DNA from: Chloroflexota bacterium
GTDB lineage: Bacteria > Chloroflexota > Anaerolineae > Aggregatilineales > Ch27
Length of the DNA stretch: 32,400 nucleotides
Reading direction: 5' to 3'
NCBI GenBank assembly: GCA_019873685.1
Contig: JAIOAT010000044.1
Coordinates: 1-32,400, forward strand
The position numbers and the translations under genes were made by a program. Under the pieces are notes generated by a model. The model was given only the letters and a program-made list of their open reading frames with translations. It did no database searches and was not told the origin of the DNA. The number at the start of each line of letters is the position of its first letter. Within the stretch, counting starts at the first letter, position 1. Shown in pieces: positions 493-32,400 of the stretch.

Positions 493-526
493 CCTCCTCT
501 GCACCGCCTGCTGTGGAAAGTGGGCC

Positions 527-532
527 TATAAT
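527..532 (+). promoter_or_regulatory. Probable -10 box of the secreted-protein gene cluster
   Basis: A perfect TATAAT sits about 38 bases before the start codon at 570, in an otherwise GC-rich stretch. No convincing -35 hexamer is seen at 16-18 bases upstream, so the promoter would be weak or activator dependent. A ribosome-binding site GAGGGGGA follows at 553-560. Confidence 0.5.
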
Positions 533-569
533 AGAACTGTCAAGACCGTTCAGAGGGGGAAAAACCGCT

Positions 570-1799: not shown

Positions 1800-1875
1800 G
1801 GGGCAGCCGCCAGTCCGGCCTGCGCCCGCGGGGAATGCTGTAAGACCATAGCATTTATCAGGAGGTTGAAGAGAG

Positions 1876-3186: not shown

Positions 3187-3234
3187 CCCCGGCGGCCAGG
3201 CGCACGCATGACAGCGCCGGGGAGGAGCAAGCCA

Positions 3235-4920: not shown

Positions 4921-5186
4921 GTATGGCCGAAGATGTCCACGCTCGGCTCGTCGCCGACATAGCGCACCAGATCGGGGAAGCGGGCCAGCGCCCGCGCCAG
5001 GCGAGCATGGGCGATCATGAAGGGATGATCGCTATCGGCGTACTGGGCCAGCGCCCGGATGTACAACCCCTGATGCTCGTAGGCCAGGCGCAGGATGAAT
5101 TCGTGGGAGTTAAAGCGGGGCGGCATCTGGGCGATCAGGGCCGGGTACAGCTGCTCCAGCGCGGCGTAGGGGTCGCTCTCGCTCAT
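4887..5186 (-). CDS. Small protein (99 aa) coupled to the restriction-modification gene
   Basis: The start codon overlaps the stop of the upstream restriction-modification gene in an ATGA (5183-5186), so the two are translationally coupled and form an operon. The product MSESDPYAALEQLYPALIAQ... is rich in aromatic and Arg residues, looks soluble and mostly helical, and has no signal peptide or membrane segment. A recognisable stretch is RFNSHEFILRLAYEHQGLYI (about 24-43). The C-terminus contains VDIFGHTG and WRR. I do not recognise a named domain. Tight coupling suggests an accessory to the enzyme, such as a DNA-binding or control subunit, but nothing in the sequence shows which. Confidence 0.75.
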   Translation of the reverse strand: MSESDPYAALEQLYPALIAQMPPRFNSHEFILRLAYEHQGLYIRALAQYADSDHPFMIAHARLARALARFPDLVRYVGDEPSVDIFGHTGAAALWRRVK

Positions 5187-8100
5187 GGGGGGCCTCCGGC
5201 TTGCGTACGCGGCCAGTCACGGGTGACCGGCCCAAAGGCGTCGTAGGTCTGCAGCAGGGCCTCCCGCCGGGCGCGGCCTTCCGGCGTATCCGGGAAGACC
5301 AGCGGGAAGGTGCCCAGGATGTGGTCAAAGTCGGCGCGGCTGAGGCCGTAGAGATGGGCGACGAGGGCGTCGATCTCATCGCGGAGGCGCTGGCGCTCCG
5401 CCGGGTCGGTTGCGCCGCAGGATTCGTCCCAGTCACCGCCCATGACCTCCCGCCACAGGTCGGCGAACTCAGGGCGGGTGCAGGTGAGCCGCGCCGCACG
5501 CGGCACGATCGCGTCGAAGTACGGGTTGCCGGGGGTAAGGCGGGGAACGGGTAGTGACTCCATGTAGAAAAAGTTAAGCGTAGTGCTTATCTTCTGCCGG
5601 ATGACGGTATCTAAAGCAAAACTATTCAGCATGGCTTGCAGGTAAAGCAATGTCGGATTCTTGTGTAATCCAAGCAGATTGATCAGGGGAGCTTTATTCC
5701 CACAGAAGGTGAGTTTGGGAATGACTGCACTGATCAATGTACGTTCATCTGTGCCACGGGCAATATCCCGAAATACTAAACGATAGTTCTTATAATCCTG
5801 TCCGGTGCCATTCTTGGCTTCAAGGCGGGCGCTGGCGGCCTTTTCTTCCACCCAGAACCGCGGTTCGCCATAGAAGGCATCGAACTGGTGGATCATCTTG
5901 CCTTCGTAAAGCGGCAGGCCGCGCCCCTGCGTATTGAACAAATCCCGATCATTGGTCATGTCAAATTCGCGCGTGAACTTGACATTCCACGTATCTGGCA
6001 CTTCTTCGCCCAGTAGCGGCCAGCCGTTGTAGATGCGCTCGGCGATGTCATAGTCGCGCTGGCTACGGAATTCCATGAGGCTGAGGCTATCCGGGCTGAA
6101 GCGTGTGATCGCATCAGTGTCCATTTCGAAAATGTAGGCATCATCGGAAAGAATCTGACGCAGGATAACCGACGTATCACGCTCTTCTGTAAGTTCAGGC
6201 CACTCGGCATGGCTGATTAGAAACAAGGCGCGGAAGCGGTGTGTCTTGCCGCCTTTACGCACACCGAGCAGGGTGAACTTGAACCGTGAATCAATATCCG
6301 GAAAGACCGCCCGGACATTGGCAAGGCCATAGAGATAATCGACCGTGCCTTCATAGAAAAGCATCTCGCGCAGCTCCTTTGTGCCCAGATCGGTGTAGAT
6401 TCCCGACGGCACCACGTAGCCGATCCGCCCGCCATCCTGCAACAGGTAGCGGTACATCCGCTCCAGGAACAGCTTGTGGGTGGCCGTATCGCCGCGCCCC
6501 TGGCGGGTGTAGTCGCCGCAGGCGCGCACGTAAGCGGCGGTTTCCTCGATAATGCGCGTCGTGGCCGCCCACAGTTCAGCGCGGCGCGGGTCTTCCGCGT
6601 TCAGTTCGTCAATGCGCCGTTCCACCTGCCGCCGGTTGAGCTTGCTTTCGATGTCCGGGTCAAACTGGGCGTAGAACTCGCGCAGGTCGGGCTTGAGAAT
6701 CTCCCAGGGGGGATTGCCGACGATGATCGTGAAACCGGGCCTTTCCAGCGGTCGCCCGGCTTCGTCAAAGAACACTTCCGGGAACTCAATCCCCCAGTGG
6801 AAGGGGTGCACACGCGCCAGATCGGAGAAGTACGGGGCAAAGTCCACGTTCAGCGCCGCGTTGAGATCGGCGAGGGCTGCCTCCAGGTCGGCCATGATCT
6901 GCTGGTGCGCCGGGCCGTTGGGGGTGCGGATGAGGTCCAGGCGCAGCCGCCGGATGCGGGCGATAGCCTCCGCGTGTGCGGCCAGACGCGGGTCATCCGG
7001 GCGCAACCCGATCAGGCTGTTGCCCACCTTGACGTTCTGGTTGAGGATTTGCGGCAGGCGCTTTTCGTGCTGGCGGCGCTCCATGGCGCGCATAATCAGG
7101 TTGACAACGGCGATCTCCGCCGCCTGCGGGTCCAGGTCCACCCCGTAGAGGTGGGTTTCAAGGATCAGGCGCGGGTAATCGCGGATGCGCTCCAGTTCCA
7201 CGGTGTAATCGGCCAGCGCCATGCGCCGCTCCAGCGGGCTGACTCCCTGGGCGGCCAGTTCGCGGTTGCGGGCTTCCATCTCCGCTTCCAGCCGCCTGAT
7301 CTCACTTTCATAGAAATCGGCCAGCACGCTGTAGGCGTAGATCAGGAAGGAACCGCTGCCACAGGCGCTATCCAGTACACGCAGGTCGCGGATCTCGCGG
7401 CTGGTCTTGCGCGTCTCGCCGGTGACGGGCTGGCCATCCGGCTGGCCGTCCGCCGTACCGTACAGGTAACGGCCCAGGGTGGTATCGACCAGATAGCGCA
7501 CGATCACCTGCGGGGTGTAATAGCTGCCCTGCTTCTTGCGCGTTTCCAGGTTGTCGCGCGTGATCACGCTGCCGTTGGTGAGCGCCAGCGTCTTGCCCAG
7601 GTACTGCTCGTAGGTGTTGCCGATGATATCGGCGGGCATCGAACGGTAGCGCGCCTCGTAGAGCTTGCCGATCAACGGCAGCAGCACCGTATCACTGAAC
7701 GAGGCCCGATCAGCCAGCCCTTCCGCAAACAGCGCCGAGTTGTGATCCTGGTCAAAGCGCCGGAAGAAGCGGTCGAGAAACTCGTCCATGGTGAAGGTGT
7801 AGGGATTGCTCAGGCAGAGATCGTAGTACTGGCGCAGCGTGCCGGGCGTGATGACCAGGTGATCTTCGGCGAAACGGACGACCACCAGACGATCCAGAAA
7901 ACGCTGCACCACTGCCCTCAGCGCGGGCAGGTCAATACTGCCATCGGCGCGAAACGCCCAGGGATTCTCCGCGCGGCGCTGCACGATATCCTGAGCCAGT
8001 TTCTCCCGCCACTCGTTGATGAAGTCCAGGTACTGCGTATCGACGTCGCGCGTGTAACGCTGGTTGCTCAGCCGGTCCAGGCTGCCGGTGAGGATGTTGT

Positions 8101-8635
8101 GGTAAGCCAGCTGCCAGAGCTGCTCGAATTCCTGCAGGTAAGCGGCAGGCCGCTCAAAGGAGAGCACCAGCCAGTCGCGCCGGGCGTTGAACAGGCGCAG
8201 CTTCTCGAAGTTAGTCAGGATGGCCCAGGTGCCGCCGTTAGCAAAGGCGTAGTTGATCGCCTGCTGTTCTTCTTCCGTGCGGTCAATCGCCATACCGGGC
8301 AGGGACATCTGCCCCGGCGTGATCACGCCGGCGATGGTGAGCCGGGCTTGTTTGAGTTCTTTGATCGCCCCGAACCGCTTGGCTTCGACAAAGATCTTCC
8401 CCCCGGACTCGGGGATCAGGGTGATGTCGGGGCGTCCGGCCTGAGTTGCCAGTTCGTACTTATAGCGAGCCGGGTCTTCGATTGGCCAGCCCAGCACATC
8501 GCGCAGGAGCCGGTCAATGAACTGGCGCACGACGCTGGCTTCGGTCATTTGCGCGCGGTCGTCTGCCGAAAGGTTTTTGTATGCCTCCAGCAGCCCCCGC
8601 AGATTGTGGCGGGCCTGTTCTTCCGTCAAGTGCAT
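5183..8635 (-). CDS. Single-chain restriction-modification enzyme (Eco57I/type IIG-like)
   Basis: A 1150-residue protein combining nuclease and DNA methyltransferase. The N-terminus has a PD-(D/E)xK nuclease signature: RPD at 68-70, then IFVEAKRF with E84 and K86. The methyltransferase part carries KKQGSYYTPQVIVRYLV (368-384, motif X region), the AdoMet-binding SACGSGSF (423-430, motif I), VDLDP near 499-503, and the N6-adenine catalytic motif NPPW (641-644). The last 300 or so residues include LYLQAMLNSFALDTVIRQ and FYMESLPVPRL, resembling TaqI-type target-recognition regions. Length and order match type IIG/Eco57I-like enzymes that cut and modify with one chain. All key residues seen are intact. 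A good promoter sits at 8669-8697. The gene is likely part of a self-contained defence unit with the coupled 99-residue protein; recognition sequence cannot be predicted. Confidence 0.9.
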   Translation of the reverse strand: MHLTEEQARHNLRGLLEAYKNLSADDRAQMTEASVVRQFIDRLLRDVLGWPIEDPARYKYELATQAGRPDITLIPESGGKIFVEAKRFGAIKELKQARLTIAGVITPGQMSLPGMAIDRTEEEQQAINYAFANGGTWAILTNFEKLRLFNARRDWLVLSFERPAAYLQEFEQLWQLAYHNILTGSLDRLSNQRYTRDVDTQYLDFINEWREKLAQDIVQRRAENPWAFRADGSIDLPALRAVVQRFLDRLVVVRFAEDHLVITPGTLRQYYDLCLSNPYTFTMDEFLDRFFRRFDQDHNSALFAEGLADRASFSDTVLLPLIGKLYEARYRSMPADIIGNTYEQYLGKTLALTNGSVITRDNLETRKKQGSYYTPQVIVRYLVDTTLGRYLYGTADGQPDGQPVTGETRKTSREIRDLRVLDSACGSGSFLIYAYSVLADFYESEIRRLEAEMEARNRELAAQGVSPLERRMALADYTVELERIRDYPRLILETHLYGVDLDPQAAEIAVVNLIMRAMERRQHEKRLPQILNQNVKVGNSLIGLRPDDPRLAAHAEAIARIRRLRLDLIRTPNGPAHQQIMADLEAALADLNAALNVDFAPYFSDLARVHPFHWGIEFPEVFFDEAGRPLERPGFTIIVGNPPWEILKPDLREFYAQFDPDIESKLNRRQVERRIDELNAEDPRRAELWAATTRIIEETAAYVRACGDYTRQGRGDTATHKLFLERMYRYLLQDGGRIGYVVPSGIYTDLGTKELREMLFYEGTVDYLYGLANVRAVFPDIDSRFKFTLLGVRKGGKTHRFRALFLISHAEWPELTEERDTSVILRQILSDDAYIFEMDTDAITRFSPDSLSLMEFRSQRDYDIAERIYNGWPLLGEEVPDTWNVKFTREFDMTNDRDLFNTQGRGLPLYEGKMIHQFDAFYGEPRFWVEEKAASARLEAKNGTGQDYKNYRLVFRDIARGTDERTLISAVIPKLTFCGNKAPLINLLGLHKNPTLLYLQAMLNSFALDTVIRQKISTTLNFFYMESLPVPRLTPGNPYFDAIVPRAARLTCTRPEFADLWREVMGGDWDESCGATDPAERQRLRDEIDALVAHLYGLSRADFDHILGTFPLVFPDTPEGRARREALLQTYDAFGPVTRDWPRTQAGGPP

Positions 8636-17742: not shown

Positions 17743-17808
17743 GTGCGGCGCGGCATTCCCGCCCGGTGTGCCATACGCCCTGGAGGCGGGATTACCGCCG
17801 GACAATTC

Positions 17809-20439
17809 ATGAGCCTGGATCACTATCTGCATCCCCATTCCCTGTCATTGCTGATCGGCGTTGGTTTGCTGCTGCTCAGCGCCGCCCTGACCTGGCGTCG
17901 CCGGGCGGGCGCCACCGGACGGACTTTTGTGGCGCTGATGCTGCTGGCCGCCGCCTGGCTGGCCAGCTACGCCCTGGAACTTGACGCTACCACAGCGGCA
18001 GCCGTCATAACATGGCACTCCGCCCGCGCAATCACGGCCATGCTGATGCTGGTCGTGTGGATGGTCTTTGTGCTGGCCTTCGCCGGGTACCGCATCTGGC
18101 GTCATCCGGCCATCTTGGGCGCGTTTCTGGCCTTTTCCGCGCTCACGCTGGCGCTGATGCTGACCAACGACCAGCACCACCTTTTTTGGGAATCCATTAC
18201 CGTCCAAGATAGCGGAAACGCGCAGATCATCGTCCACACGCCTGGCGTCTGGGTGTGGCTATGCACCACGCTCGGGCTGGGGCTGGGGGTGGTCTCCATC
18301 ACCATCCTGCTACAGACCTTTCGGCGCTCACCACAGATGACGCGGGGGCAACTCGCGGCCTTGCTGCTGATCTGGTTGCCGCCGACCGCCGTCATGGTGC
18401 TGCACATCCTGAACATCCCTGCCGGCGTCCTGGCTGAATTGACGCCTTATGTGCTGGGCGGCAGTGCGTTGTTGCTCGTCTGGAGCCTGTACGCGCAGGA
18501 CATCTTCGCCATCTCCCATACGACCTACGATCACATCGTCGCCAGCATGGACGACGGCGTGATCGTCCTGGATACCGACAACACCATAGTCAGCATCAAC
18601 CCCGCCGCGCTGGCCCTAGTTAATACCCTCACCCTGGATTCGGTTGGCCAGTCGATCGAATGTGTCTTCCAGGGCATGCCGGAACTGCTGGCCCGTTCCC
18701 GCGACGTGCGCAGTGTCCACACCGAGATCACCCTGCCGCTGGATACCGGTGTGCGTCACTTTGACCTGCGCATTTCGCCGCTGGAAGATCCGCGCGGGCG
18801 GCTGACCGGGCGGGTGATCGTCCTGCGCGACATCACCGCCCAGGTGGAGGCGGAGGCGCAACTGCGCACACTTTCCCGCGCTGTGGAGCAGAGCGGCAGC
18901 ATCATTATCATCACCAACACCCGCGGTGAAATCGAGTACGTCAACCCGGCGTTCACGGCGGTCACCGGCTATACTGCCGCCGAGGCCCTGCACCAGAATC
19001 CGCGCCTGTTACGCTCCGGCGAGTCGCCGCCGGAGGTTTACGAGGAGCTGTGGCGCAGGCTGACCAGCGGCCGGGAGTGGCGCGGTGAGTTCCATAACCG
19101 CAAGAAGAACGGCCAGCTTTACTGGGCGCAGGCCGTGATCTCTCCGGTGCTGGACGCTGAAGGGAACATCACCCACTTTGTGGCCGTCCAGGATGACATC
19201 ACCCGCCAGAAAGAAGTCGCCGAGCAGGAGCGCCGCCAGCGCCTGCTGGCTGAGGCGCTACGCGACAACGCCGAGGCGCTCAACAGCACGCTTGACGGCG
19301 AAGAGATGCTCAGGCATGTGCTGGAAAACGCCGTGCGGGCCGTCTTCACCACGTACGATCTGGCCAGCATCCTGCTGATCGAAAACGGAATCGCCCGCCT
19401 GGTGCGCCAGCATCGCGCTCCCGGCAGCGATGTCCCCCTCCGTGAAGTGACCACCTTCCCGGTCAGCGACCTGCCATCGCTGCAACAGGTCTGCGCAACT
19501 GGCCAGCCCGCGCTCATCGCGGATGCACACACCCATCCCGGCTGGCGGCGGTTGCCCGGCAGCGATTGGATCCGCTCCTGCGTCTGCGTGCCCATCCGCC
19601 TGGAGGATCGCGTCGTCGGCATCCTTAACCTGAGCGCCAGCCAGCCGGGCGCCTTTGACCAGGAAACAGTCGAGCACCTGCGGGCCTTTGCCAACCAGGC
19701 GGCCATCGCGCTCGCTAACGTCCGTTCCTTTGCCACCATCCAGCGATACGCGGCAGAACTGGAAGCCCGCAACCGCGAACTGGATTCCTTCGGCCATACG
19801 GTCGCCCACGATCTGCGCAGCCCGCTGGGCCTGATCCTGGGCTACCTGGGCCTGGCCGCCGAGGAAGACCTGACGCCGGATGTCCGCCAGTACATCGAAG
19901 AAGCGATCGGCGCGGCGCACAAGATGAATGGCATGATCGAGGCGCTGTTGCTGCTGGCGCAGGTGCGCAATGGGGCGGAAGTGCGCAGTGAAGTCAACCT
20001 GAATGATGTCGTCGGGGCAGCCATTGATCGCTTCCACATCCAGATCGCGGAGCGCGGCATCCAGGTTGATGTGCAGCCGGATCTGCCGAAGGCGCTCGGT
20101 TACGCCCCCTGGGTCGAAGAAGTGCTGGCCAACCTGATCAGCAACGCGATCAAGTACATCGGGCGAGAAAACACCGCCCCGCACATCACCGTGCGCGCCT
20201 TCCGCACCGGGGAGATGATCCGTTGCGAGGTACAGGACAACGGCGTGGGGATCAGCCCGGAAGACCAAAGGCGGTTGTTTGAGATGTTCGCCCGCTTTCA
20301 TAAGCGCGAAGCGCAGGGCTTTGGGCTGGGGCTATCCATTGTGCTGCGCATCGTGACCAAGATGGGTGGGCAGGTTGGCGTGGAAAGCGAGCCGGGTCAG
20401 GGCAGCACATTCTGGTTCACCCTGCCTGCGGCAGGGTAG
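17809..20439 (+). CDS. Hybrid-input sensor histidine kinase (7TM-PAS-PAS-GAF-HisKA-HATPase)
   Basis: An 876-residue membrane sensor. Residues 1-230 contain seven hydrophobic helices of the 7TM sensor type. PAS 1 covers about 240-345 (MDDGVIVLDTDNTIVSINPA) and PAS 2 about 354-465 (GEIEYVNPAFTAVTGYT, ending VQDDIT). GAF follows at about 490-640 (CVCVPIRLEDRVVGILNLSA). The dimerisation/phosphoacceptor motif is GHTVAHDLRSPLG (662-674) with His 667. The ATPase part has the N box VLANLISNAIKYI, DNGVGISPEDQRRLFEMF and GFGLGLSIV. All catalytic residues seen are intact. No response-regulator gene is adjacent, so the partner is elsewhere. A GTG at 17743, right after the preceding stop, would add 22 residues; the ATG at 17809 is preferred because its N-terminus leads straight into the first helix, although its ribosome-binding site is weak. 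Confidence 0.88.
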   Translation: MSLDHYLHPHSLSLLIGVGLLLLSAALTWRRRAGATGRTFVALMLLAAAWLASYALELDATTAAAVITWHSARAITAMLMLVVWMVFVLAFAGYRIWRHPAILGAFLAFSALTLALMLTNDQHHLFWESITVQDSGNAQIIVHTPGVWVWLCTTLGLGLGVVSITILLQTFRRSPQMTRGQLAALLLIWLPPTAVMVLHILNIPAGVLAELTPYVLGGSALLLVWSLYAQDIFAISHTTYDHIVASMDDGVIVLDTDNTIVSINPAALALVNTLTLDSVGQSIECVFQGMPELLARSRDVRSVHTEITLPLDTGVRHFDLRISPLEDPRGRLTGRVIVLRDITAQVEAEAQLRTLSRAVEQSGSIIIITNTRGEIEYVNPAFTAVTGYTAAEALHQNPRLLRSGESPPEVYEELWRRLTSGREWRGEFHNRKKNGQLYWAQAVISPVLDAEGNITHFVAVQDDITRQKEVAEQERRQRLLAEALRDNAEALNSTLDGEEMLRHVLENAVRAVFTTYDLASILLIENGIARLVRQHRAPGSDVPLREVTTFPVSDLPSLQQVCATGQPALIADAHTHPGWRRLPGSDWIRSCVCVPIRLEDRVVGILNLSASQPGAFDQETVEHLRAFANQAAIALANVRSFATIQRYAAELEARNRELDSFGHTVAHDLRSPLGLILGYLGLAAEEDLTPDVRQYIEEAIGAAHKMNGMIEALLLLAQVRNGAEVRSEVNLNDVVGAAIDRFHIQIAERGIQVDVQPDLPKALGYAPWVEEVLANLISNAIKYIGRENTAPHITVRAFRTGEMIRCEVQDNGVGISPEDQRRLFEMFARFHKREAQGFGLGLSIVLRIVTKMGGQVGVESEPGQGSTFWFTLPAAG
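20419..20437 (+). other. Perfect hairpin at the end of the kinase gene
   Basis: ACCCTGCC (20419-20426) and GGCAGGGT (20430-20437) pair over a three-base loop, spanning the last codons. No T-run follows, so it may mark a 3' end or slow read-through only; the role is uncertain. Confidence 0.3.
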
Positions 20440-20630: not shown

Positions 20631-23213
20631 ATGACAGACAAGATCATCACCATTCATATTGACGGCGTCCCCTATGACGTGCCCGAGGGCATGAACCTGG
20701 TGGACGCAGCCCGTGTGTACGCGGGGGTGGAAATCCCGATCTTTTGCTACCACCCCAAGATGGACGCGGTAGGCATGTGCCGTATGTGCCTGGTGGAGGT
20801 CGGCTTTGAAGTCCGCGACCGGGCCACCGGCGAGCCAGTCCTTAACCCGGACGGCACCCCCCAGGTCCGCTGGGGTCGCAAGCTGGAAACCGGCTGCACC
20901 ACCCTGACCCGCGCCGGTCTGCACATCCGCACCACCACCCCCCAGGTTCAGGAAGCCCGCAAAGATGTCCTGGAATTCCTGCTCAGCAGCCACCCGCTGG
21001 ACTGCCCGATCTGCGACAAGGGCGGCGAGTGCCCGCTGCAGAACCTGACCATGCGCCACGGCCCCGGCACCAGCCGGATGGTCTTCGAAGAGAAGATGCA
21101 CCTGGCCAAGAATGTCCCGCTGGGCGACCTGATCGTGCTTGACCGCGAGCGGTGCATCCAGTGCGCCCGCTGTGTGCGCTTTCAGGCGGAAGTTGTGGGC
21201 GATGACGTGCTGGCCTTCCACGAGCGCGGGCGACGGCTGGAGATCATCACCGTCAGCAATCCGCCCTTTGACACCTACTTCAGCGGCAACACGACCGACA
21301 TCTGCCCGGTGGGCGCGCTGACCAGCGTGGACTTCCGCTTTGGCGCCCGCCCCTGGGAACTACAGGACGTGCCCAGCATCTCGCCGCATGGCCCGGTCGG
21401 CGAAAACATCGTCGCCAGCACGCGCCTGGACCGCGATTCTGGCGGCGTCAAAGTGATCAAGCGCATCCTGCCGCGCCAGAACGAAGCCGTCAACGAAATC
21501 TGGATTTCCGACAAAACCCGCTTTGGCCACCACTTCTCGATGAGTCCCAACCGGCTGCGCACGCCGTTGATCCGCAAGCGTGGCGAGCTGGTTGAAGCTG
21601 GCTGGGATGACGCGATCAAGGCGGCGGGCAAAGCCCTCAAAGAGGCTGGCAGCAGCGTGGGCTTCATCGGCGGGCCGATGATGACCAATGAGGACCTCTT
21701 CGCCCTGCGGGAGCTGGCCGAACTGGTCGGCAGCCAGCGGCTGGGCGTCTGGCCGCCTAACCTGGGCGATCCGCGCCCGGTGGCGGAAGTCGGGCTGGCC
21801 AGCGGCTCGCGGCTGGTGGAGCTGGGCAAAGGCGACGCCGTGCTGGTCATCGCCTCCGACCTGGAGGAAGAAGCCCCGATCTGGTACCTGCAGGCCAAGC
21901 AGGCCCACGATCGTGGGGCAGCGGTGATCGTGGCCAACATGCGCGTCACCAAGCTGGAGCATTACGCCAACGAAGTGATCCGCTTCGGTTTTGGCGGAGC
22001 GGTAGACGTCCTCAACGGTCTCACGGCGGCGGCGCTTGCCGATGACCTGGCCGATCCGGCGGCTCTGGAACGGGCCGAGGGGCTGGCTGCCCTGCGCAAA
22101 GCGCTCAAAGGCAAAGCCGCCCATCAGCAGGCCGCCGCAACACTGGCCAGGGCCAGCAACCTGGTGATCTTCGCCGGGGACGACGGCCTTGACCCGGCGG
22201 GGCACAGCGCCCTGTTGCAGGCGGCGGCTAACTTCCTGATCGTGACCGGGCACGCTGGCCGCCGCAACAACGGCCTGGTGCCGGTCTGGCCGGGGGCCAA
22301 CACCCAGGGCGCTTTTGACCTGGGCTTCAGCGCCGCCGAAACCCGCGCCATGCTGCAGGATCCGCCTGAGGTGCTGGTGATCGCCGGGGCTGATGTGGCG
22401 TACGATCCGGCCTGGGCCGGCGTGCTGAGCCGGAGCACGGTGATCGTGCTCAGCCTGTTCCCTGACGCCACGGTGGCCCGGGCAGCAGTGGCCCTGCCCA
22501 TCCAGAGCTTTGCCGAGCGTGAGGGCACCTTCACCAATGCCCTGCGCCGCGTCCAGCGTTTCTATACGCTGCATGGCCCGGTCGGGCAGAGCCTGCCCGC
22601 CTGGGAGGTGGCGGCCCTGATCGGCCAGCGGCTGGGCGGGCCAAAGCCACGCCATAGCGCCGCGCTGGTGATGAAGGCCATCACGGAAAGCGTCAGCCAG
22701 TACGCGGAGATGAGCTATCCCGCGCTGGCGCAGGTCGAAAAGCAGTTCCCGCCGGTCGGGGAAGCGCCGGGCTTTTATGGCGGTACGGCCAAAGCGCCGA
22801 CCGGCGGCACAGGGCGGCAGTGGCCGTGCCTGGCTGAAGGCGGCGGCAGGCTGCCGCTGCGCCCGGCAGCAGCGCCAGCGCCGGTCAGGGCAGGCGATGG
22901 CGAACTGGTGATCGTGCCGGTGCGCCGCCTGTACGACCGCGCGCCGGAGTTCTACGCCAGCACGCTGATGCATGGCCGCATCCCGCAGCCGTTTGCCGCG
23001 CTCAACAGCGCCGACGCTGCCCGGCTGGGCATCGCCGCCGGTGACTCGATCACGATCACGGTGGCCGGTTCCAGCCTGACCGTCGCTGCCGTGGTGGATG
23101 ATTACGCGCCGGCAGGGGTTGTCCTGGTCCCGCAGCGCCTGAGCGATGACCCGCTGCCGTTTGTCCCGACGGCGGGTGTAGTGGCCAGGGCAGCGATTGC
23201 AGAGGCGGTCTAG
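20631..23213 (+). CDS. nuoG: NADH-quinone oxidoreductase subunit G
   Basis: The 860-residue largest peripheral-arm subunit of complex I carries electrons through iron-sulfur clusters in the cytoplasm. The N-terminal ferredoxin domain supplies a [2Fe-2S] site (Cys 39, 50, 53, 89). His 121 with Cys 125, 128 and 134 forms the N5 motif (HPLDCPICDKGGEC). Cys 175, 178, 181 and 225 bind the next [4Fe-4S] cluster (CIQCARC and ICPVG). At residues 250-259 the sequence ISPHGPVGEN aligns with the place where some bacterial NuoG proteins have the CxxCxxxC motif of cluster N7; all its cysteines are gone. The rest is a molybdopterin-oxidoreductase-like fold without cofactor role, ending with an ADP-binding-like C-terminal part (LNSADAARLGIAAGDSITIT). 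No nuoA-F genes precede it. Confidence 0.95.
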   Translation: MTDKIITIHIDGVPYDVPEGMNLVDAARVYAGVEIPIFCYHPKMDAVGMCRMCLVEVGFEVRDRATGEPVLNPDGTPQVRWGRKLETGCTTLTRAGLHIRTTTPQVQEARKDVLEFLLSSHPLDCPICDKGGECPLQNLTMRHGPGTSRMVFEEKMHLAKNVPLGDLIVLDRERCIQCARCVRFQAEVVGDDVLAFHERGRRLEIITVSNPPFDTYFSGNTTDICPVGALTSVDFRFGARPWELQDVPSISPHGPVGENIVASTRLDRDSGGVKVIKRILPRQNEAVNEIWISDKTRFGHHFSMSPNRLRTPLIRKRGELVEAGWDDAIKAAGKALKEAGSSVGFIGGPMMTNEDLFALRELAELVGSQRLGVWPPNLGDPRPVAEVGLASGSRLVELGKGDAVLVIASDLEEEAPIWYLQAKQAHDRGAAVIVANMRVTKLEHYANEVIRFGFGGAVDVLNGLTAAALADDLADPAALERAEGLAALRKALKGKAAHQQAAATLARASNLVIFAGDDGLDPAGHSALLQAAANFLIVTGHAGRRNNGLVPVWPGANTQGAFDLGFSAAETRAMLQDPPEVLVIAGADVAYDPAWAGVLSRSTVIVLSLFPDATVARAAVALPIQSFAEREGTFTNALRRVQRFYTLHGPVGQSLPAWEVAALIGQRLGGPKPRHSAALVMKAITESVSQYAEMSYPALAQVEKQFPPVGEAPGFYGGTAKAPTGGTGRQWPCLAEGGGRLPLRPAAAPAPVRAGDGELVIVPVRRLYDRAPEFYASTLMHGRIPQPFAALNSADAARLGIAAGDSITITVAGSSLTVAAVVDDYAPAGVVLVPQRLSDDPLPFVPTAGVVARAAIAEAV

Positions 23214-23450: not shown

Positions 23451-24839
23451 ATGATCGATCCGAGTCTGATTGTTTCCTGCAGCGCTAACGCCACCTGCAG
23501 CGTGGTGCATGCCGTTGTCATGAGCCTGCTGTTCTTCCTGGTGCTGATGGGCGGCTTCGCCTATACCACCTGGCTGGAGCGCCGCCTGGTGGCGCGTTTC
23601 CAGCATCGCCTTGGCCCTGATCGGGTCGGCCCGGCGGGGTTGCTGCAGCCGATCGCAGACGGCATCAAACTGATCTTCAAGGAAGATGTCACGCCGCTGG
23701 ACGCGGACAAAATCATGTACTGGCTGGCGCCGATGATCAAGGCCGTCCCGGCCCTGATCGTCCTGGCGGTGGTGCCGCTGGGGTCAACCATGCTGGTTCC
23801 CTGGTTTGACGGCCGGTGGTACGAGGTGCGGCTGGGCCTGACCGACGTCAACGTCGGCGTGCTCTGGTTGCTGGCCATCACCAGTCTGGGCACGTACGGC
23901 GTGGTGCTGGCCGGGTGGGCCAGCGGCAGCAAGTACTCGATGTACGGCGGTCTGCGTTCCAGCGCCCAGATGATCAGCTACGAGCTGAGCATGGGCATCT
24001 CCATGCTCGTCCCGATCATGATCGCCGGGAGCCTGTCGGTGGTGAAAGTGATTGAAACGCAGGCTGAACCGGCGCTGATGCTGGGATGGTTCTTCTGGCA
24101 AAACCCGCTGGCCGCCGTCATCCTGATGACCGCCCTGCTGGCGGAGGTCAATCGCTCGCCGTTCGACATGCCAGAAGCGGAATCGGAGCTGGTGGGCGGC
24201 TACCACACCGAATACAGCGGCATGAAGTTCGCCCTGTTCTTCGCGGCGGAATACATCGGCATGATCGCGATGAGCGCCGTATTCGCGGCCATGTTCCTGG
24301 GTGGGTACCACTGGCCGCTGCCGGCGACCTGGTCGCCGCTGCTGGGGCCGGTCAACATGATCCTCAAGATCGTGGTGCTGCTCAGCAGCATGGTCTGGGT
24401 ACGGGCCACCCTGCCGCGCATCCGCTACGACCGGCTGATGGCCTTTGGCTGGAAGATCATGTTCCCGCTGGCGCTGCTATCAGTCGCCTGGCAGGCCATC
24501 GTCCTGACGCTGGCCGAAGACTCGACCGCCATGACGGTGTATACCGGCCTGGCGGGGACCGCTTTTGCGCTGGTGGTGCTGGCCGTCCTGATGGGCCTGT
24601 GGCGTTCCCGGCGGGCAGCCCCGGCCTACGACCTGACCGATTCGCGTTCCAGCCTGGGCTGGGCCATCGTGTACGGCATCGGGGCGGTCGTAGCCGCGCC
24701 GTTTGCGCTCTACGACTGGCTGAAGAAGCAGCGCGGGAGCTTTGAAGGCTTCTGGGAAGCAACCCGCCGCGAGCGCGAGGCCGCCCGCGCGGCCCGCGCC
24801 GCCGAACAACAGGCGGGATCTTCCGGCGACAGCCGCTAA
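23451..24839 (+). CDS. nuoH: NADH-quinone oxidoreductase subunit H, C-terminally extended
   Basis: The 462-residue membrane subunit forms most of the quinone chamber. It has the signatures WLERRLVARFQHRLGPDRVG (41-60), QPIADGIKLIFKED (66-79) and AEVNRSPFDMPEAESELVGG (231-250), followed by YHTEYSGMKFALFF, all close to consensus. The usual NuoH ends near residue 355; this one continues about 105 residues with two more hydrophobic segments (about 365-385 and 402-420) and a charged Arg/Ala/Glu-rich tail. The ATG at 23451 has GAGAGGA eight bases upstream; a longer frame back to 23373 gives an unlikely N-terminus. The 237-base gap from nuoG holds a weak TATAGT at 23304-23309 and a 12-base direct repeat (23366 and 23398). 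Confidence 0.94.
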   Translation: MIDPSLIVSCSANATCSVVHAVVMSLLFFLVLMGGFAYTTWLERRLVARFQHRLGPDRVGPAGLLQPIADGIKLIFKEDVTPLDADKIMYWLAPMIKAVPALIVLAVVPLGSTMLVPWFDGRWYEVRLGLTDVNVGVLWLLAITSLGTYGVVLAGWASGSKYSMYGGLRSSAQMISYELSMGISMLVPIMIAGSLSVVKVIETQAEPALMLGWFFWQNPLAAVILMTALLAEVNRSPFDMPEAESELVGGYHTEYSGMKFALFFAAEYIGMIAMSAVFAAMFLGGYHWPLPATWSPLLGPVNMILKIVVLLSSMVWVRATLPRIRYDRLMAFGWKIMFPLALLSVAWQAIVLTLAEDSTAMTVYTGLAGTAFALVVLAVLMGLWRSRRAAPAYDLTDSRSSLGWAIVYGIGAVVAAPFALYDWLKKQRGSFEGFWEATRREREAARAARAAEQQAGSSGDSR

Positions 24840-24958: not shown

Positions 24959-25453
24959 GTGAACGTCATCCGTGGCTTTGCAACGACACTCAAGCATCTT
25001 TTCAAGGAGCCGGTGACCTACCAGTATCCGGAAGTGGAGCGGCCCTTTGCCGAACGCTACAAGGGACGCCACGCTCTCAAACGTTACGAAAACGGGCTGG
25101 AAAAATGCATCGGCTGCGCCCTGTGTGCAGCGGCCTGCCCGGCGGACGCCATCTGGGTGGAAGCAGCGGAAAACACCGATGACGAACGCTACAGCCCCGG
25201 CGAGCGGTATGCCAAGACCTACGAGATCAACATGCTGCGCTGCATCTTCTGTGGCTACTGCGAGGATGCCTGCCCGACCGAGGCCATCGTGCTGGAGCAC
25301 GAGCATCGCCTGAGTTTCACCAACCGCCGCGACGCCATCTACACCAAGGCCGAACTGCTGGATCCGCCGCCCCCCGGTGTGCCGGGCACGCCGCAGAAAG
25401 TCGCGCCGGGCAGTTTTGACCGCGCCATTCCCGATATGCGCGATCCCGATTAG
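24959..25453 (+). CDS. nuoI: NADH-quinone oxidoreductase subunit I
   Basis: The 164-residue protein has two [4Fe-4S] ferredoxin motifs, CIGCALCAAACP (Cys 50, 53, 56, 60) and CIFCGYCEDACP (Cys 95, 98, 101, 105). These are clusters N6a and N6b, which pass electrons towards NuoB and the quinone. The N-terminal FATTLKHLFKEPVTYQYPE and the YEINMLRC segment between the clusters are typical. The start is GTG, with GGAGGAAG about ten bases upstream. Length is normal. It lies 119 bases after nuoH and 107 bases before the ATP-grasp gene; the latter gap contains a GC hairpin (about 25465-25489) of unknown role. Confidence 0.95.
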   Translation: MNVIRGFATTLKHLFKEPVTYQYPEVERPFAERYKGRHALKRYENGLEKCIGCALCAAACPADAIWVEAAENTDDERYSPGERYAKTYEINMLRCIFCGYCEDACPTEAIVLEHEHRLSFTNRRDAIYTKAELLDPPPPGVPGTPQKVAPGSFDRAIPDMRDPD

Positions 25454-25560: not shown

Positions 25561-26658
25561 ATGCGCGTTGCGGTTCTGGCGAACCTGAAGGAAAACGCCC
25601 CCACCTGGGAAGGCATGTCCGCCGACCAGTGGGATGATCTTGACAGTCCTAAAACTATCCACGCCATCTGTGAAGCGCTGCAGGCAGGGGGGCATGAGGC
25701 CGAATTCTTTGAGGCTCAAATCCGCCCGCCGTATAACCTGGTGCAGCGCCTGGAAGCCTACAAACCGGACATCTGCTTTAACATCGCCGAGAGTCATTTC
25801 GGCGATGGCCGCGAGGCGCAGGTGCCGGCCATCCTGGAGATGCTCCAGATCCCCTATACGGGCAGCCAGGTTCTGACCCTGGCCCTGGCCCTGGACAAGC
25901 CGATGACCAAACGCATCCTGTGGTATCACGGCCTGCCCACGCCGGAGTTTCAGGTCTTCGACCGGGCTGACGAACTGGTCGACGAAGACCTGCTCGACGA
26001 AAACGGCGAACTGCGCTTTCCAATGTTCGTCAAGCCCAGCCGGGAAGGCACCAGCATGGGCGTCAGCGCGGAAAGCATTGTCTACACCGTTGAGCAGTTG
26101 CACAAGCAAGTCGCCAAACAACTCCGGCTGTACAAACAGCCGATCCTGGTGGAACACTTCATCAAAGGCCGGGAGATGACGCTGGGCATGATCGGCAACA
26201 TCAAGCCCCCGGCGGCCCGCCGTCTGAGCGATCATACCCCGCCCAATGAGCTGCCCCAGGGTCTGACCTTCTTCCCGGTGCTGGAGGTAGACACCGGCGC
26301 CTATGCCTCAGAAGCCGGGGTGTACACCAACAGGATGAAGGTCGAGATGGCCGAAGACTTCTACTACTTCTGCCCGGCGCCGATCAGTGATGAGTTCGAG
26401 CAGCAGCTGCGCCTGCTGGCGGCGGCGGTCTTCCGGGTGACGGGCTGCAAGGATGTCGCCCGCGTGGACTTCCGCCTGGATGAGGAAAACGACAACAAGC
26501 CCTACATCCTGGAGGTCAACCCGCTGCCGGGCCTCAACCCCGGCTATAGCGACCTGTGCATCCAGGCGCGGGCCGCTGGCTGGACCTACGAGGAGCTGGT
26601 CAACGGCATCCTCGATCGGGCGGTTGCCCGTCACGGCCAGGCCGTCCAGGCTGGCTAA
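25561..26658 (+). CDS. ATP-grasp ligase, D-alanine--D-alanine ligase-like, inside the nuo cluster
   Basis: A 365-residue ATP-grasp protein of the Ddl superfamily (COG1181). It has FNIAES...GREAQVPAILEM (73-94), a Ddl-like N-domain signature, then IPYTGSQVLTLALALDKPMTK (the substrate-binding region), VKPSREGTSMGV (157-168), EHFIKGREMTLG (198-209), ARVDFRLDEEN (300-310) and EVNPLPGLNPGYSDL (318-332), where the Mg-binding Glu and Asn stand. Active-site motifs look intact. It ligates two small carboxylate/amino substrates at the cost of ATP, but the true substrate is uncertain: its active-site loop and insert (GNIKPPAARRLSDHTPP, 212-228) differ from housekeeping Ddl. GGGAGGAGG lies 14 bases upstream. 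Sitting between nuoI and nuoJ on the same strand, it is probably co-transcribed with complex I genes. Confidence 0.8.
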   Translation: MRVAVLANLKENAPTWEGMSADQWDDLDSPKTIHAICEALQAGGHEAEFFEAQIRPPYNLVQRLEAYKPDICFNIAESHFGDGREAQVPAILEMLQIPYTGSQVLTLALALDKPMTKRILWYHGLPTPEFQVFDRADELVDEDLLDENGELRFPMFVKPSREGTSMGVSAESIVYTVEQLHKQVAKQLRLYKQPILVEHFIKGREMTLGMIGNIKPPAARRLSDHTPPNELPQGLTFFPVLEVDTGAYASEAGVYTNRMKVEMAEDFYYFCPAPISDEFEQQLRLLAAAVFRVTGCKDVARVDFRLDEENDNKPYILEVNPLPGLNPGYSDLCIQARAAGWTYEELVNGILDRAVARHGQAVQAG

Positions 26659-26822: not shown

Positions 26823-28073
26823 ATGACGGAAGTCATCGTCTTTCTCATCGTCGGCAGCATCGCCATCCTGTCCGCCGCGTTCATGCTGGTCAGCAAGAAC
26901 GCGGTGCACAGCGCCGTCTTCCTGGTACTCAACTTCATGTGCGTGGCCTTTTTCTTCCTGACCCTCAGTGCGCCATTCATTGCCCTGGTGCAGGTAGCGG
27001 TCTACGCCGGCGCAATCATGGTGTTGTTCCTTTTTGTGATTATGCTGCTGGGGGCGGAGCGCGTGGTCGGGGGCGCCAGCAACATCTACAACTGGTTGCC
27101 ACGGGCGGCTCTGGTGCTGGTCACGATCTTCCTGATCACGGTAGGCTGGGCGCTGGCCAGCGGCGAGATCAACACCCACACCCCCCCGCCCGCCGCGCCG
27201 CAGGTGCGCGTCATCCATGCGGCGGAAGCGCCGCCGGTTGATGTTTACCTGAACAACCAGATTTTTGTGGAAGGCGTGAACTTCCGCGAGGCTACCGATT
27301 ACCATTCCCTGGCCGCCGGGACCTATGGCGTGACTGTCTTCCCGGCGGGCGCTGATCCGGCCACCGAATCGGCGGCTATCCTGGGCGAACTGGTTCTTTC
27401 GAACGGCGACGTGGTCACCATGGTGGCGGTCGGAGCCAATGGCGTCTTTCAACTGGTACGCCTGGAAGACAACCCCCTGCCGCCTGGCCCCAACCAGGCC
27501 CGCCTGACCATCCTTAACGCCCTGCCGGATGTCCCGGCCATCGATCTGGTTGATCCGGGGCTGCCCTCCGCTGACGATACCACTGTGCTGATCGCCAGCG
27601 CGGGCTTTGCCGAGCCGGTGGAAACCCTGCTGGTCGATGCCGCCGAAGCGCGCACGCTGGCGGTTCAGCAGACTGGCAGTGCCGGGGATCGCCCGCTGGC
27701 GACCTACCGTGACCTGCCGCTGATGGAAGGCACCAACAACCTGCTGATCGCGGCTCCGGAACAACTGCCCAGCGGCACACGCCGGATAGCACCGGTGCAC
27801 GTGGCGCAGGCGGCCCAGCCGCTCTTTGGCAGCCCGGATATGGTCGCTCAGGCGCTCTATACCGATTACCTGCTGCCTTTTGAGATGGTCTCGGTGCTGC
27901 TGCTGGCGGCCATGATCGGGGCGGTGGTGCTGGCCCGCCATGACCTGGTCCAGGAAAGCCGCCCGCGCCGCCCGGTGGTGCTGCGCCCGCTGATCGGCGC
28001 GCCAACAGCCACCCTGACCACGCCCACCCAGGAACCGACCCGCCCGGTCACCACGCCGAAGTCCGGCGACTGA
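26823..28073 (+). CDS. nuoJ: NADH-quinone oxidoreductase subunit J with inserted DUF4397-like domain
   Basis: A 416-residue protein where NuoJ is normally about 165-200. Helices 1-4 cover roughly 4-24, 27-48, 52-77 and 92-113 and include [20 protein letters not shown], the conserved helix-3 region (residues 56-75). Helix 5 is at about 348-371 with the conserved [20 protein letters not shown], then a cytoplasmic tail rich in Pro, Thr and Arg. Between helices 4 and 5, residues about 115-345 are soluble: [18 protein letters not shown] (128-145) with [17 protein letters not shown] is a clean DUF4397 pattern, and a diverged second unit begins [18 protein letters not shown] (226-243). By NuoJ topology this loop faces outside the cytoplasm, as expected for DUF4397 of secreted proteins. 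The start at 26823 has AGGA eight bases upstream. The frame is continuous, so this is a true single-gene fusion. Confidence 0.92.
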
Positions 28074-28104: not shown

Positions 28105-28422
28105 ATGGAACCGACCATCTTCGTCCCGACTGACCTGTACCTGATGCTGAGCGCGGTGCTCTTCGTGATGGGCACGCTCGGCGTGCTCATCCGCCGCAAT
28201 GCCATCGTGATCTTCATGTCGGTAGAGCTGATGCTTAACGCGGGCAACCTGGCCATGGTCGCTCTGGCCCGGCAGTGGGGCCAGGTGGACGGGCAGGTGT
28301 TTGTGTTCTTTGTGATGACGGTGGCCGCGGCGGAAGTGGCGGTGGGTCTGGCCCTGATCGTCTCCATCTTCCGCACGCGCAAAAGCATCAACATCGACGA
28401 CCTGCACAACCTGAAAGGTTAA
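28105..28422 (+). CDS. nuoK: NADH-quinone oxidoreductase subunit K
   Basis: The 105-residue, three-helix membrane subunit belongs to the proton channel region. It has the typical [20 protein letters not shown] with the conserved Glu of helix 2, then [13 protein letters not shown], and helix 3 with [19 protein letters not shown], carrying the second conserved Glu. It lies 31 bases after nuoJ with GGAAGGA about 12 bases before the ATG, and ends [11 protein letters not shown] as in many NuoK proteins. Length and residues are standard. Confidence 0.96.
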
Positions 28423-28524: not shown

Positions 28525-30882
28525 ATGGAAAACTTCCCACAACTCGTCCCGCTGGTGGTTTTTGTGCCGCTGATCGGCCTGCTGATCAACCTCTTCCTGG
28601 GCAAGTACCTGGGTGAACGGGGGGTCAGCATTGTCGCGGTAGGCGCGGCGGCGATCGCTTTTGCGGTAGCCATCCTGCTATGGATGGCCCTGGCCGCCAA
28701 CGGCTATGAGGCGGCGGTGATCGAGATTCGCCCGCTGGCTAACTGGATCACTATTCCGGAAGCGGCGCTGGACATCAAGTGGCAGTTCCGCGTGGATACG
28801 CTCAGCGTGACGATGATGCTGGTGGTGGCCGGGATCGGCTCTCTGATCCATCTGTACGCCACCGGCTACATGCACGGCGACCCGCTCTTCCCCCGCTTTT
28901 TCGTCTACCTCAACCTGTTCCTCGTCTTCATGATGATCCTGGTCACCGGCAACAACTTCCTGGTCATGTTTGTCGGCTGGGAGGGCGTAGGGCTGTGCTC
29001 CTACCTGTTGATCAGCTTCTGGTGGGATAAGCGCCAGCCGGACAGGAAGTTCGGGACAGTGGGCTGGAAGAATTCGCTGGCCGGGCGCAAGGCCATGATC
29101 GTCAACCGGATCGGGGACTTTGGCCTGCTGCTGGCGATCTTCCTGATCTTCTGGACCTTCGGCACGCTGGATTACTACAAACCGGGCGAGGTGCCCATCC
29201 TGCCCGCGCACGGCGAGGCGGCAACTCATGGCGAGGCAGAAGCCGCCCACAGCGAAGGCGAAGCGGGGACACCCGCTGCCGCTGAAGGCCTGCCGCTCTC
29301 GGCGACGATGGGCGTCTTCAACCAGGCGGAGATGATGCTGCAGCAGGGCGCGGAGGTGCACTTCGGGCCGTTCACGCTGCCGATTGGCACGGTGATCACG
29401 CTGGCGACGCTGCTCATGCTGCTGGGTGTGACCGGCAAGAGCGCCCAGATTCCGCTGTTTGTGTGGCTGCCAGACGCGATGGCCGGCCCGACGCCGGTCA
29501 GCGCCCTCATCCATGCCGCCACGATGGTCACGGCGGGCGTCTACCTGATCGTGCGCAGCAATGTACTGTTCCACGCCGCGCCGGTCAGCAGCGCGGTGGT
29601 GGCCCTGGTGGGCACTTTCACCGCTCTGGTTGGCGGCTTCATCGCCCTGGGTCAGTGGGACATCAAGCGCGTGCTGGCCTACAGCACGGTCAGCCAGCTT
29701 GGCTTCATGGTGGCGGCGGCAGGGCTGGGCGCGTACGCGGCAGCCATGTTCCACCTGGTAACCCACGCCTTCTTCAAGGCGCTGCTCTTCCTCGGTTCCG
29801 GCGCGGTGATCCACGCCATGGAACACGGCCATCATCACGCCCATGAGGTAGCCCACGAATACGGCGGCCACCACAGCGATGACCTGCCCGACCTGCCTTT
29901 TGATCCGCAGGATATGCGCTTTATGGGCGGGCTGAAGGAACGCATGCCGCGCACCTACCGCGCTTACCTGATCGGCATGCTGGCCCTGGCAGGCATCTTC
30001 CCCTTCGCCGGGTTCTGGTCCAAGGATGAGATTCTTCTTGACGCGCTGAAGGTCGGCTTTTTGAACGGGCGGCTGGAAGGGTATATTGCCTTTGGCCTGT
30101 TGCTGGTTTCGGCGCTCTTCACGGCCTTTTACATGGGCCGCCAGGTGTACATGATCTTCCACGGCGAGCCGCGCACGGAAGCCGCCAAGTACGCCGGGGA
30201 ACGCGGCGGCGGCATGAACGTGATGGTCAACGTCCTGATCGTGCTGGCCATCGGCTCAACCCTGATCGGCCTGATCAACGTCCCGACGGGCTTCTGGGTG
30301 GTCGACCGGATCGTCCCTAACCACGTTTTCACCGACTTTCTGGCGCACACGGTGGTCTACGCCCATGCGGGGTCGGCCAACATGCTGCTGGCTTTCATCG
30401 CCGTGTTCGGCGCGCTGGCCATGATCTACCTGGCGCGCATCCTCTACCGCCGACAGGCGGTGGTGCAGGGCACCCGCGACCCGCTGGAGGCCAACCCGCA
30501 AACGGCGGGCATCTTCACTCTGGCCAACGCCCGGCTATACTGGGACGAGACCTACGACCGCTACCTGGAGCAGCCGTTCAACCGGGCGGCGGCCTGGCTG
30601 GGCGACCGGCTGGACTGGGCCTTTTTGCATGACTTTGTGCACGACGTACTGATCCGCGACGCCTATAACGCGCTGGGCCGGGTGCTGGCCACGCCGGTTG
30701 ACCTGGGCCTGATCGATGGCGCGGTCAACGGGCTGGGGCGGCTGGTGCGTCGGGCCGGTGGCGCGGTGCGCCGCCTGCAGACCGGTTATGTGCGCGTGTA
30801 CGCGCTGAGTGTGTTGCTGGGCGCGTTACTGATTGTTGTCCTGCTGGTGGCGCCGCTGCTACAGCAGGCGCTGGGCGGATAG
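28525..30882 (+). CDS. nuoL: NADH-quinone oxidoreductase subunit L
   Basis: The 785-residue distal antiporter-like proton-pumping subunit. The key charged residues are present: the helix-5 Glu in FVGWEGVGLCSYLLI (Glu 153), the helix-7 Lys in GVTGKSAQIPLFVWLPDAMA (Lys 305), and the KRVLAYSTVSQLGFM segment (381-395). Two family-variable loops are long here: 225-262, with alternating His/Glu/Ala, and 430-450, with a His cluster (HGHHHAHEVAHEYGGHH), just before the typical DPQDMRFMGGLKERMP. The C-terminal part (about 640-785) holds the long lateral helix and a final membrane anchor (VYALSVLLGALLIVVLL). It is preceded by a 102-base gap with a weak ribosome-binding site. Confidence 0.95.
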   Translation: MENFPQLVPLVVFVPLIGLLINLFLGKYLGERGVSIVAVGAAAIAFAVAILLWMALAANGYEAAVIEIRPLANWITIPEAALDIKWQFRVDTLSVTMMLVVAGIGSLIHLYATGYMHGDPLFPRFFVYLNLFLVFMMILVTGNNFLVMFVGWEGVGLCSYLLISFWWDKRQPDRKFGTVGWKNSLAGRKAMIVNRIGDFGLLLAIFLIFWTFGTLDYYKPGEVPILPAHGEAATHGEAEAAHSEGEAGTPAAAEGLPLSATMGVFNQAEMMLQQGAEVHFGPFTLPIGTVITLATLLMLLGVTGKSAQIPLFVWLPDAMAGPTPVSALIHAATMVTAGVYLIVRSNVLFHAAPVSSAVVALVGTFTALVGGFIALGQWDIKRVLAYSTVSQLGFMVAAAGLGAYAAAMFHLVTHAFFKALLFLGSGAVIHAMEHGHHHAHEVAHEYGGHHSDDLPDLPFDPQDMRFMGGLKERMPRTYRAYLIGMLALAGIFPFAGFWSKDEILLDALKVGFLNGRLEGYIAFGLLLVSALFTAFYMGRQVYMIFHGEPRTEAAKYAGERGGGMNVMVNVLIVLAIGSTLIGLINVPTGFWVVDRIVPNHVFTDFLAHTVVYAHAGSANMLLAFIAVFGALAMIYLARILYRRQAVVQGTRDPLEANPQTAGIFTLANARLYWDETYDRYLEQPFNRAAAWLGDRLDWAFLHDFVHDVLIRDAYNALGRVLATPVDLGLIDGAVNGLGRLVRRAGGAVRRLQTGYVRVYALSVLLGALLIVVLLVAPLLQQALGG

Positions 30883-30907: not shown

Positions 30908-32400
30908 ATGATGGAAAACACCGCAATCTCGCTCACAACCGTGGCTCTGTTTGCGCCGCTGGTGGGGATGTTCGTGCTGCTCTTCATCCCCAGAGCGCGC
31001 GAGGAAGCTATCCGCTGGGTAGCGCTGGGTACCACACTGGTCACCTTCATCCTGACCATTCTGCTGGCGCTGGCCATGGATCACGCCAACCCTGATCTAC
31101 AACTGGTCACGTTCTACAACTGGGTCCCGGCGTGGGGCATCAGCTACTATGTCGGCGTAGACGGCCTGAGCATCCTGCTGGTGCTGCTCACAGCCTTCAT
31201 CATGCCCGCGTCGATCCTGGTGAGCTGGGACTCGATCAAGGATCGGGTCAAGCTGTACTACGTCTTCATGCTGCTGCTGGAATTCGCCATGATCGGCGTG
31301 TTCGTGGCCCAGGACCTCTTCCTGTTCTACATCTTCTGGGAGGTCACGCTGGTGCCGATGTACTTCCTGATCGGCATCTGGGGCGCGGAAAACCGGGTCT
31401 ACGCCGCCGTCAAGTTCTTCCTGTACACGATGGCCGGCTCCCTGTTGATGCTAATCGCCATCCTGTTCCTGGGCAATATGGGCGGGACATTCGCCCTGCC
31501 GGAGCTGATCGCGCAGGTGCGCAACGGGACGCTCGTCTACCCGGCGGGCGCGGAGATGCTGCTCTTCGCCGGTTTCGCCATCGCCTTCGCCATCAAGGTC
31601 CCGATGTGGCCGCTGCACTCCTGGTTGCCGGATGCGCATGTGCAGGCTCCGACGGCTGGCTCGGTCATCCTGGCTGGCGTCCTGCTGAAGATGGGCACCT
31701 ACGGCTTTGTGCGCTTTAACCTGCCGCTCTTCCCGCAGGCCAGCGTGCAGGCCGCGCCGTTGATCGCCGTCCTGGCTGTGATCGGGATCATTTACGGCGC
31801 ATGGGTCAGCTACGCGCAAAAAGACGCCAAGAAGCTGGTGGCCTATTCCTCGGTCAGCCACCTGGGCTTTGTCATGCTGGGCATCTTCGCCCTCAACGCG
31901 GCGGGCATCTCCGGCGGCATCCTGCAGATGGTCAACCACGGGATCAGCACGGGCGGGCTGTTTATCCTCGTCGGCATCCTCTATGAGCGCCGCCACACCA
32001 AGGCCCTGGACGCTTTCGGCGGGGTGTGGAAGGCGCTGCCGCTCTTCGGCGGGCTGAGCCTGATCATCGTCCTGAGCAGCATGGGTCTGCCGGGGATGAA
32101 CGGCTTTGTTGGCGAGTTCACGATCCTGCTTGGCTCGTTTGGCAGCCCGGTACTGGGTTTCTTCTTCACGTTCTTCGCCGCGTTCGGCGTGATCATGGCC
32201 GCCGTGTACCTGCTGTACATGTTCCAGAAGATCTTCATGGGGCCGCTGGACAAGCCAGAAAACGAGGCGCTGGCCGCCCAGCCGCTGACCTGGAAGGAAC
32301 TGGTGGCGCTGGTGCCGCTGATCGTCCTGATCTTCTGGATCGGTCTCTTCCCGCAGATGTTCTTCGGGATGATGGGCAGCAGCGTGAGCGAGCTGGTGGC
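30908..32400 (+). CDS. nuoM: NADH-quinone oxidoreductase subunit M, 3' end outside the window
   Basis: A frame opens at 30908 (a second ATG follows at 30911) and is still open at the window edge, giving about 497 residues of a subunit usually about 490-540 long, so only the end is missing. It has the helix-5 Glu in FYIFWEVTLVPMYFLIGIWG (Glu 145), the helix-7 Lys in AIKVPMWPLHSWLPDAHVQA (Lys 230), LLKMGTYGFVRF, and KLVAYSSVSHLGFVMLGIFA, all hallmarks of proton-pumping NuoM. GGGAGA lies about eight bases upstream, and the gap from nuoL is 25 bases. nuoN is expected next but is not seen. Confidence 0.95.
   Translation, partial: MMENTAISLTTVALFAPLVGMFVLLFIPRAREEAIRWVALGTTLVTFILTILLALAMDHANPDLQLVTFYNWVPAWGISYYVGVDGLSILLVLLTAFIMPASILVSWDSIKDRVKLYYVFMLLLEFAMIGVFVAQDLFLFYIFWEVTLVPMYFLIGIWGAENRVYAAVKFFLYTMAGSLLMLIAILFLGNMGGTFALPELIAQVRNGTLVYPAGAEMLLFAGFAIAFAIKVPMWPLHSWLPDAHVQAPTAGSVILAGVLLKMGTYGFVRFNLPLFPQASVQAAPLIAVLAVIGIIYGAWVSYAQKDAKKLVAYSSVSHLGFVMLGIFALNAAGISGGILQMVNHGISTGGLFILVGILYERRHTKALDAFGGVWKALPLFGGLSLIIVLSSMGLPGMNGFVGEFTILLGSFGSPVLGFFFTFFAAFGVIMAAVYLLYMFQKIFMGPLDKPENEALAAQPLTWKELVALVPLIVLIFWIGLFPQMFFGMMGSSVSELV

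Follow-up and report, generated by a model that had tools for sequence, protein, structure and literature searches.

The NuoJ subunit encoded in the window, by which is meant the whole stretch of 32,400 nucleotides of Chloroflexota DNA that was analysed, carries an additional folded part of about 205 residues between its transmembrane helices 4 and 5. At a probability of roughly 0.5, we read this insert as the result of a single capture of an exported two-unit DUF4397 protein, which would act as an outer docking module and is probably dispensable for catalysis and assembly. NuoJ belongs to the conserved membrane core of complex I, an enzyme whose additions are generally regarded as accessory subunits in their own right. 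In this case the core subunit itself would have gained an exported-looking two-domain module in a single event; five families have retained it, and one natural loss allows a comparison. The insert thus offers a testable case for the acquisition of outer surfaces by bacterial complex I, and a physiological context for DUF4397.

The nuoJ gene (26823-28073, + strand, as are the cluster genes and protein parts of the window given below) was identified from its open frame and from Pfam and NCBIfam matches. Its 416 codons are translated without an internal stop, and the 416-residue product is laid out in a single frame as helices 1-4, the extra residues and helix 5. Helices 1-4 occupy residues 1-113 (26823-27161) and include the conserved [18 protein letters not shown] helix; they were delimited by the PF00499 match, hydropathy and alignment to NuoJ chains in the Protein Data Bank (PDB). 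The helix 5 region, residues 338-376 (27834-27950), was recognised from a second PF00499 stretch, the structure model and a PDB NuoJ alignment covering residues 334-383. By charge count and alignment, a basic C-terminal tail that is presumably cytoplasmic follows (27951-28070). Helices 4 and 5 are connected by a loop of 224 residues (114-337), of which about 205 (127-331) form the folded part. Five hydrophobic helices were found by hydropathy and by alignment to solved NuoJ chains, the helices of the model being of low confidence.

The window protein scored 124.7 bits against PF00499, Oxidored_q3 (cut-off 33.2, E 3e-36, two stretches), and 86.4 bits against PF14344, DUF4397 (cut-off 30.6, E 3e-24, residues 127-242), and both families were matched in 27 of the 27 aligned relatives. 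An earlier note, made from the sequence without database searches, had described one unbroken frame with NuoJ helices 1-4, a DUF4397-like insert and helix 5, and the translation and the domain search that it proposed bear out the frame and the identity of the insert, with DUF4397 above its gathering score. The insert size of about 230 residues given there was too large and is nearer 205-210. Against the full-length NCBIfam equivalog for subunit J the best score was 114 bits, under the cut-off of 192, because the match is interrupted by the insert and falls into two parts; this shortfall concerns the automatic name, and the protein has the Pfam family, the helices and the gene order of a NuoJ. 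It resembles the NuoJ, Nqo10 and ND6 proteins of PF00499 in helices 1-4 and 5, in the helix 3 motif and in its position in the nuo cluster. No solved full-length NuoJ-type chain exceeds 252 residues or matches the insert, whereas the window NuoJ has its additional residues between helices 4 and 5.

Two units make up the insert. Unit 1 (residues 127-217, 27201-27473) is a DUF4397 beta-sandwich with a PF14344 match of E 2.8e-24 and a model pLDDT of mostly 89-97. Unit 2 (residues 223-331, 27489-27815) is a diverged beta-sandwich of the same kind, with a pLDDT of mostly 82-95, structural matches to the second lobe of the PepT extracellular domain and to the HGSNAT lumenal domain, and a conserved R227/N232 motif. 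The Pfam search of the window protein returned a single DUF4397 stretch and no PF14344 match for unit 2, which would be DUF4397-like only by its predicted fold and its motif. Hence the second diverged unit proposed in the earlier note is upheld as a predicted second beta-sandwich at about residues 223-331, but has no Pfam match in the window protein.

A structure prediction of the full-length NuoJ, based on 15 sequences, gave the insert as two beta-sandwiches with a pLDDT of about 75-93; the membrane part was poor (about 50-66), and its helices were too poor for placing the insert on complex I. Structure prediction, a check proposed in the same note, gave a confident tandem beta-sandwich for the insert alone, with a mean pLDDT of 90.2, a pTM of 0.87 and lobes at about residues 127-215 and 225-331. 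When this model was compared with solved structures, the top matches covering both lobes were the extracellular domains of PepT2 and PepT1 (Z 14.5-16.0). The best of them (Z 16.0 over 176 residues, rmsd 2.8) lies well above other families. Lobe 2 resembles the HGSNAT lumenal domain (Z about 11-12), single lobes match the N- and C-terminal domains of AlgF (Z 9-10), and all other matches had Z of 8 or less. The best Foldseek E value was 2e-8. For AlgF and HGSNAT the likeness is thus limited to one lobe (Z 9-12), and their host proteins and functions are unrelated. In a sequence search of the PDB, solved NuoJ and ND6 chains aligned on either side of the insert, and neither a solved NuoJ nor any other entry matched the insert itself.

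Sequence matches to the insert, with E values of 2e-17 to 2e-7, came from stand-alone two-unit DUF4397 proteins of the phylum, the best at 37% identity over 154 residues. These proteins are about 230-250 residues long in Chloroflexota and begin with a signal-like leader. Secreted proteins of PF14344 are thus homologous to the insert and have the same tandem two-unit layout, but they stand alone behind a leader, whereas in NuoJ the pair sits inside a polytopic subunit of a respiratory complex. The comparison makes secreted two-unit DUF4397 proteins of the phylum the likely source of the insert.

The long NuoJ was found in 135 of the 154 genomes of the order, across five families, a figure that is a tally of the listed rows over all 154. 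It includes 94 full single matches, three that are cut at contig ends, one split over two contigs (G025) and 37 whose open frames, of 467-519 residues, contain a diverged insert. In families f3, f5 and f6 the long form was absent from all twelve genomes, and six further genomes of the order gave no NuoJ from this cluster. In a 51-row tree of NuoI, NuoK and NuoM, from which G704 and six loci with nuoM missing or cut and a paralogue in its place were left out, one change with support 100/98 suffices to explain the insert. Judged from these sequences, the insert was gained once. In genome G704 of family f4, the nuoJ gene of this cluster encodes a clean short form (locus L228, about 5747-6352), whereas the other members of f4 have the insert. 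Because G704 is nested within f4 with support 100/99, its short NuoJ is taken as a loss. A wider taxonomic spread was rejected, as no long NuoJ was found outside the order in samples, not full censuses, of 396 genomes of the class and 301 of the phylum. Among the best 80 named loci there were 14 full-length carriers, all of them Chloroflexota records and mostly labelled Anaerolineae, including CFX5 and CFX9.

The rates of change were compared for separate parts of the protein. Between the window and G001, a genome of the same genus, dN/dS was 0.086 in helices 1-4, 0.079 in unit 1 and 0.108 in unit 2, and in three more close pairs dN was well below dS in both insert units. By these ratios the insert is under purifying selection. 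Between families it diverges faster than the core, with a mean column identity of 0.41-0.49 versus 0.73.

The insert sits probably outside the membrane, as the earlier note had proposed, and several features point there together. In the window protein it has a pI of 4.2 and contains neither lysine nor cysteine. Helix 5 is followed by a tail that is basic in this protein and strongly basic in many relatives, and the other DUF4397 proteins of the window genome start with signal-like or lipoprotein-like leaders. In E. coli NuoJ, Ser145 and Glu142 lie near the start of helix 5 according to established topology. These two residues have been described as belonging to a possible connection of E. coli complex I with the periplasmic surface (PMC8357420).

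According to the reading preferred here, the NuoJ of a NuoG-containing complex I would have captured an exported two-unit DUF4397 protein once, in its helix 4-5 loop. The insert is confidently predicted to fold independently as tandem beta-sandwiches, which would lie on the membrane arm's outer side and may hold complex I to a putative extracytoplasmic protein or an element of the cell envelope; the earlier note had considered binding of this kind, or a shielding of the membrane arm. This docking role is modelled on the outside domain of mammalian PepT1 and PepT2, which has the same fold and is proposed to dock. The PepT domain, a tandem of two immunoglobulin-like folds set into the transporter fold, has been found to bind trypsin (PMC4597091). 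Like the insert, it is a tandem of beta-sandwiches, matched in both lobes at Z 16, on the outer side of a membrane protein. However, the host protein is different, identity is 10-12%, no sequence homology was detected in the PDB sequence search, and the trypsin binding was observed with PepT. A common fold does not show a common function. Since the core of NuoJ is unaltered and the descendant genome G704 has cleanly lost the insert, catalysis and assembly probably do not depend on it.

Several results count against docking. The conserved residues of the insert mostly belong to the general DUF4397 fold signature (R129, H132, D140, Y142 and G166), and no clear binding patch or apparent ligand site was seen among them; the faster divergence than the core and the loss in G704 point the same way. 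Alternative complex III was rejected as a general partner, as its marker ActD occurs in only 26 of the 154 genomes of the order and is absent from the window genome. An enzymatic function was also rejected, given the lack of a PDB sequence match, the absence of cysteine and lysine from the window insert and the conservation of fold-signature positions.

Purifying selection without an evident binding patch would suit a passive cap, which would shield or stiffen the membrane arm on its outer side (NuoJ, NuoA, NuoH and NuoK) and bind nothing else. The loop between helices 6 and 7 of NuoL, measured from the NRIGD to the TGKSAQ motif, is likewise enlarged throughout the order (93-187 residues versus 49-68 in other orders), as if the outer face were generally covered. 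A precise tandem domain from a secreted family nevertheless seems elaborate for a cap, and its closest structural match has been shown to bind a protein. We consider such a cap unlikely, yet deserving of serious attention.

The same loss in G704, the divergence between families and the restriction of conserved residues to the fold signature could also be accommodated by a neutral insertion, that is, a secreted domain tolerated in a permissive loop, inherited and constrained only in its folding. Its retention through five families and in 135 of 154 genomes argues against this, as does a dN/dS close to 0.1 for the most similar pair, together with a dN well under dS for the three others. Little credence is given to this explanation. 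Still far less probable is a regulator of proton or quinone coupling, in which the lobes, by moving, would act on helices 4 and 5 close to the path of the protons; NuoJ is situated in the coupling region, and rotation of its TMH3 is associated with the active-deactive transition of mammalian complex I (PMC8357420), but the insert has no apparent ligand site and the NuoJ core is unchanged. An assembly or gene-calling artefact or a chimera, for which nothing speaks except the oddity of the protein, is ruled out for practical purposes by 135 separate species-level assemblies with the long form, in a single frame except at contig ends, and by the dN/dS values; the frameshift or chimera that the earlier note had named as fatal was sought in independent assemblies and not found, G001 having the same long NuoJ at 94% identity.

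A comparison with sister families bears on the proposed outer docking surface. In families f5 and f6, which are without the NuoJ insert, the NuoH of three out of three genomes (G008, G009 and G015; loci L180, L181 and L183) is longer by about 90-100 residues in the loop that joins helices 6 and 7. In the two tested, this added stretch matched Baseplate_J (E 2e-4 and 3e-7), a domain unrelated to the DUF4397 insert. The NuoH helix 6-7 loop is presumably on the outer side, in line with established topology. Like the NuoJ insert, the NuoH domain is an addition to a loop that presumably faces outwards, here in a neighbouring subunit of complex I, but it belongs to another domain family and another subunit and lies outside the window. 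No unbroken match to it was found in other genomes of the order among the matches listed. Because NuoH of the sister families carries an addition of another kind in a loop that is presumably outer, the comparison suggests that adding domains on the outer face of complex I has been repeatedly favoured. We propose tentatively, at odds short of even, that the lineage built a new outer docking surface on complex I by the NuoJ capture and that the sister lineage did so independently by way of NuoH; the outcome would be a supercomplex specific to the lineage, or a complex I attached to the cell envelope. In the literature searched, no description of a complex I with DUF4397 paired to NuoJ was found, in agreement with the earlier note, which knew of none, and with the solved NuoJ chains.

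The order nuoG-H-I-J-K-L-M is kept in most carriers, and so is the position of nuoJ in most relatives; in family f7, nuoG, nuoH and nuoI do not adjoin nuoJ in the stretches read. In the window, nuoG (20631-23213), nuoI (24959-25453) and nuoK (28105-28422) were assigned by the conserved cluster order. The protein encoded by nuoH (23451-24839, PF00146) is extended at its C-terminus by about 100 residues, which include additional hydrophobic stretches. Cluster order and loop comparison identified nuoL with its enlarged TM6-7 loop (28525-30882), and the matched part of nuoM, assigned by cluster order, spans 30908-32278, the gene continuing towards the window end. A D-Ala-D-Ala-ligase-like ATP-grasp gene (25561-26658, PF07478, E 5.8e-34) lies in the interval between nuoI and nuoJ and was seen in family f1 only. 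The NuoF and NuoD homologues of the window genome are on other contigs. Besides the long form, this genome encodes a second NuoJ, short and of ordinary length, which belongs to another nuo cluster with ATP-synthase-like genes after it. Chloroflexus aurantiacus is known to have two complex I clusters (PMC3150298).

Directly upstream of nuoG, a large open reading frame at 17743-20439 resembles a multi-domain sensor histidine kinase. Elsewhere in the window, a 1150-residue open reading frame on the - strand (5183-8635) resembles a restriction-modification enzyme, and three adjacent paralogous, exported-looking proteins at 513-4863 have the common N-terminal pattern CPALV..AL....LGRDTACYG.
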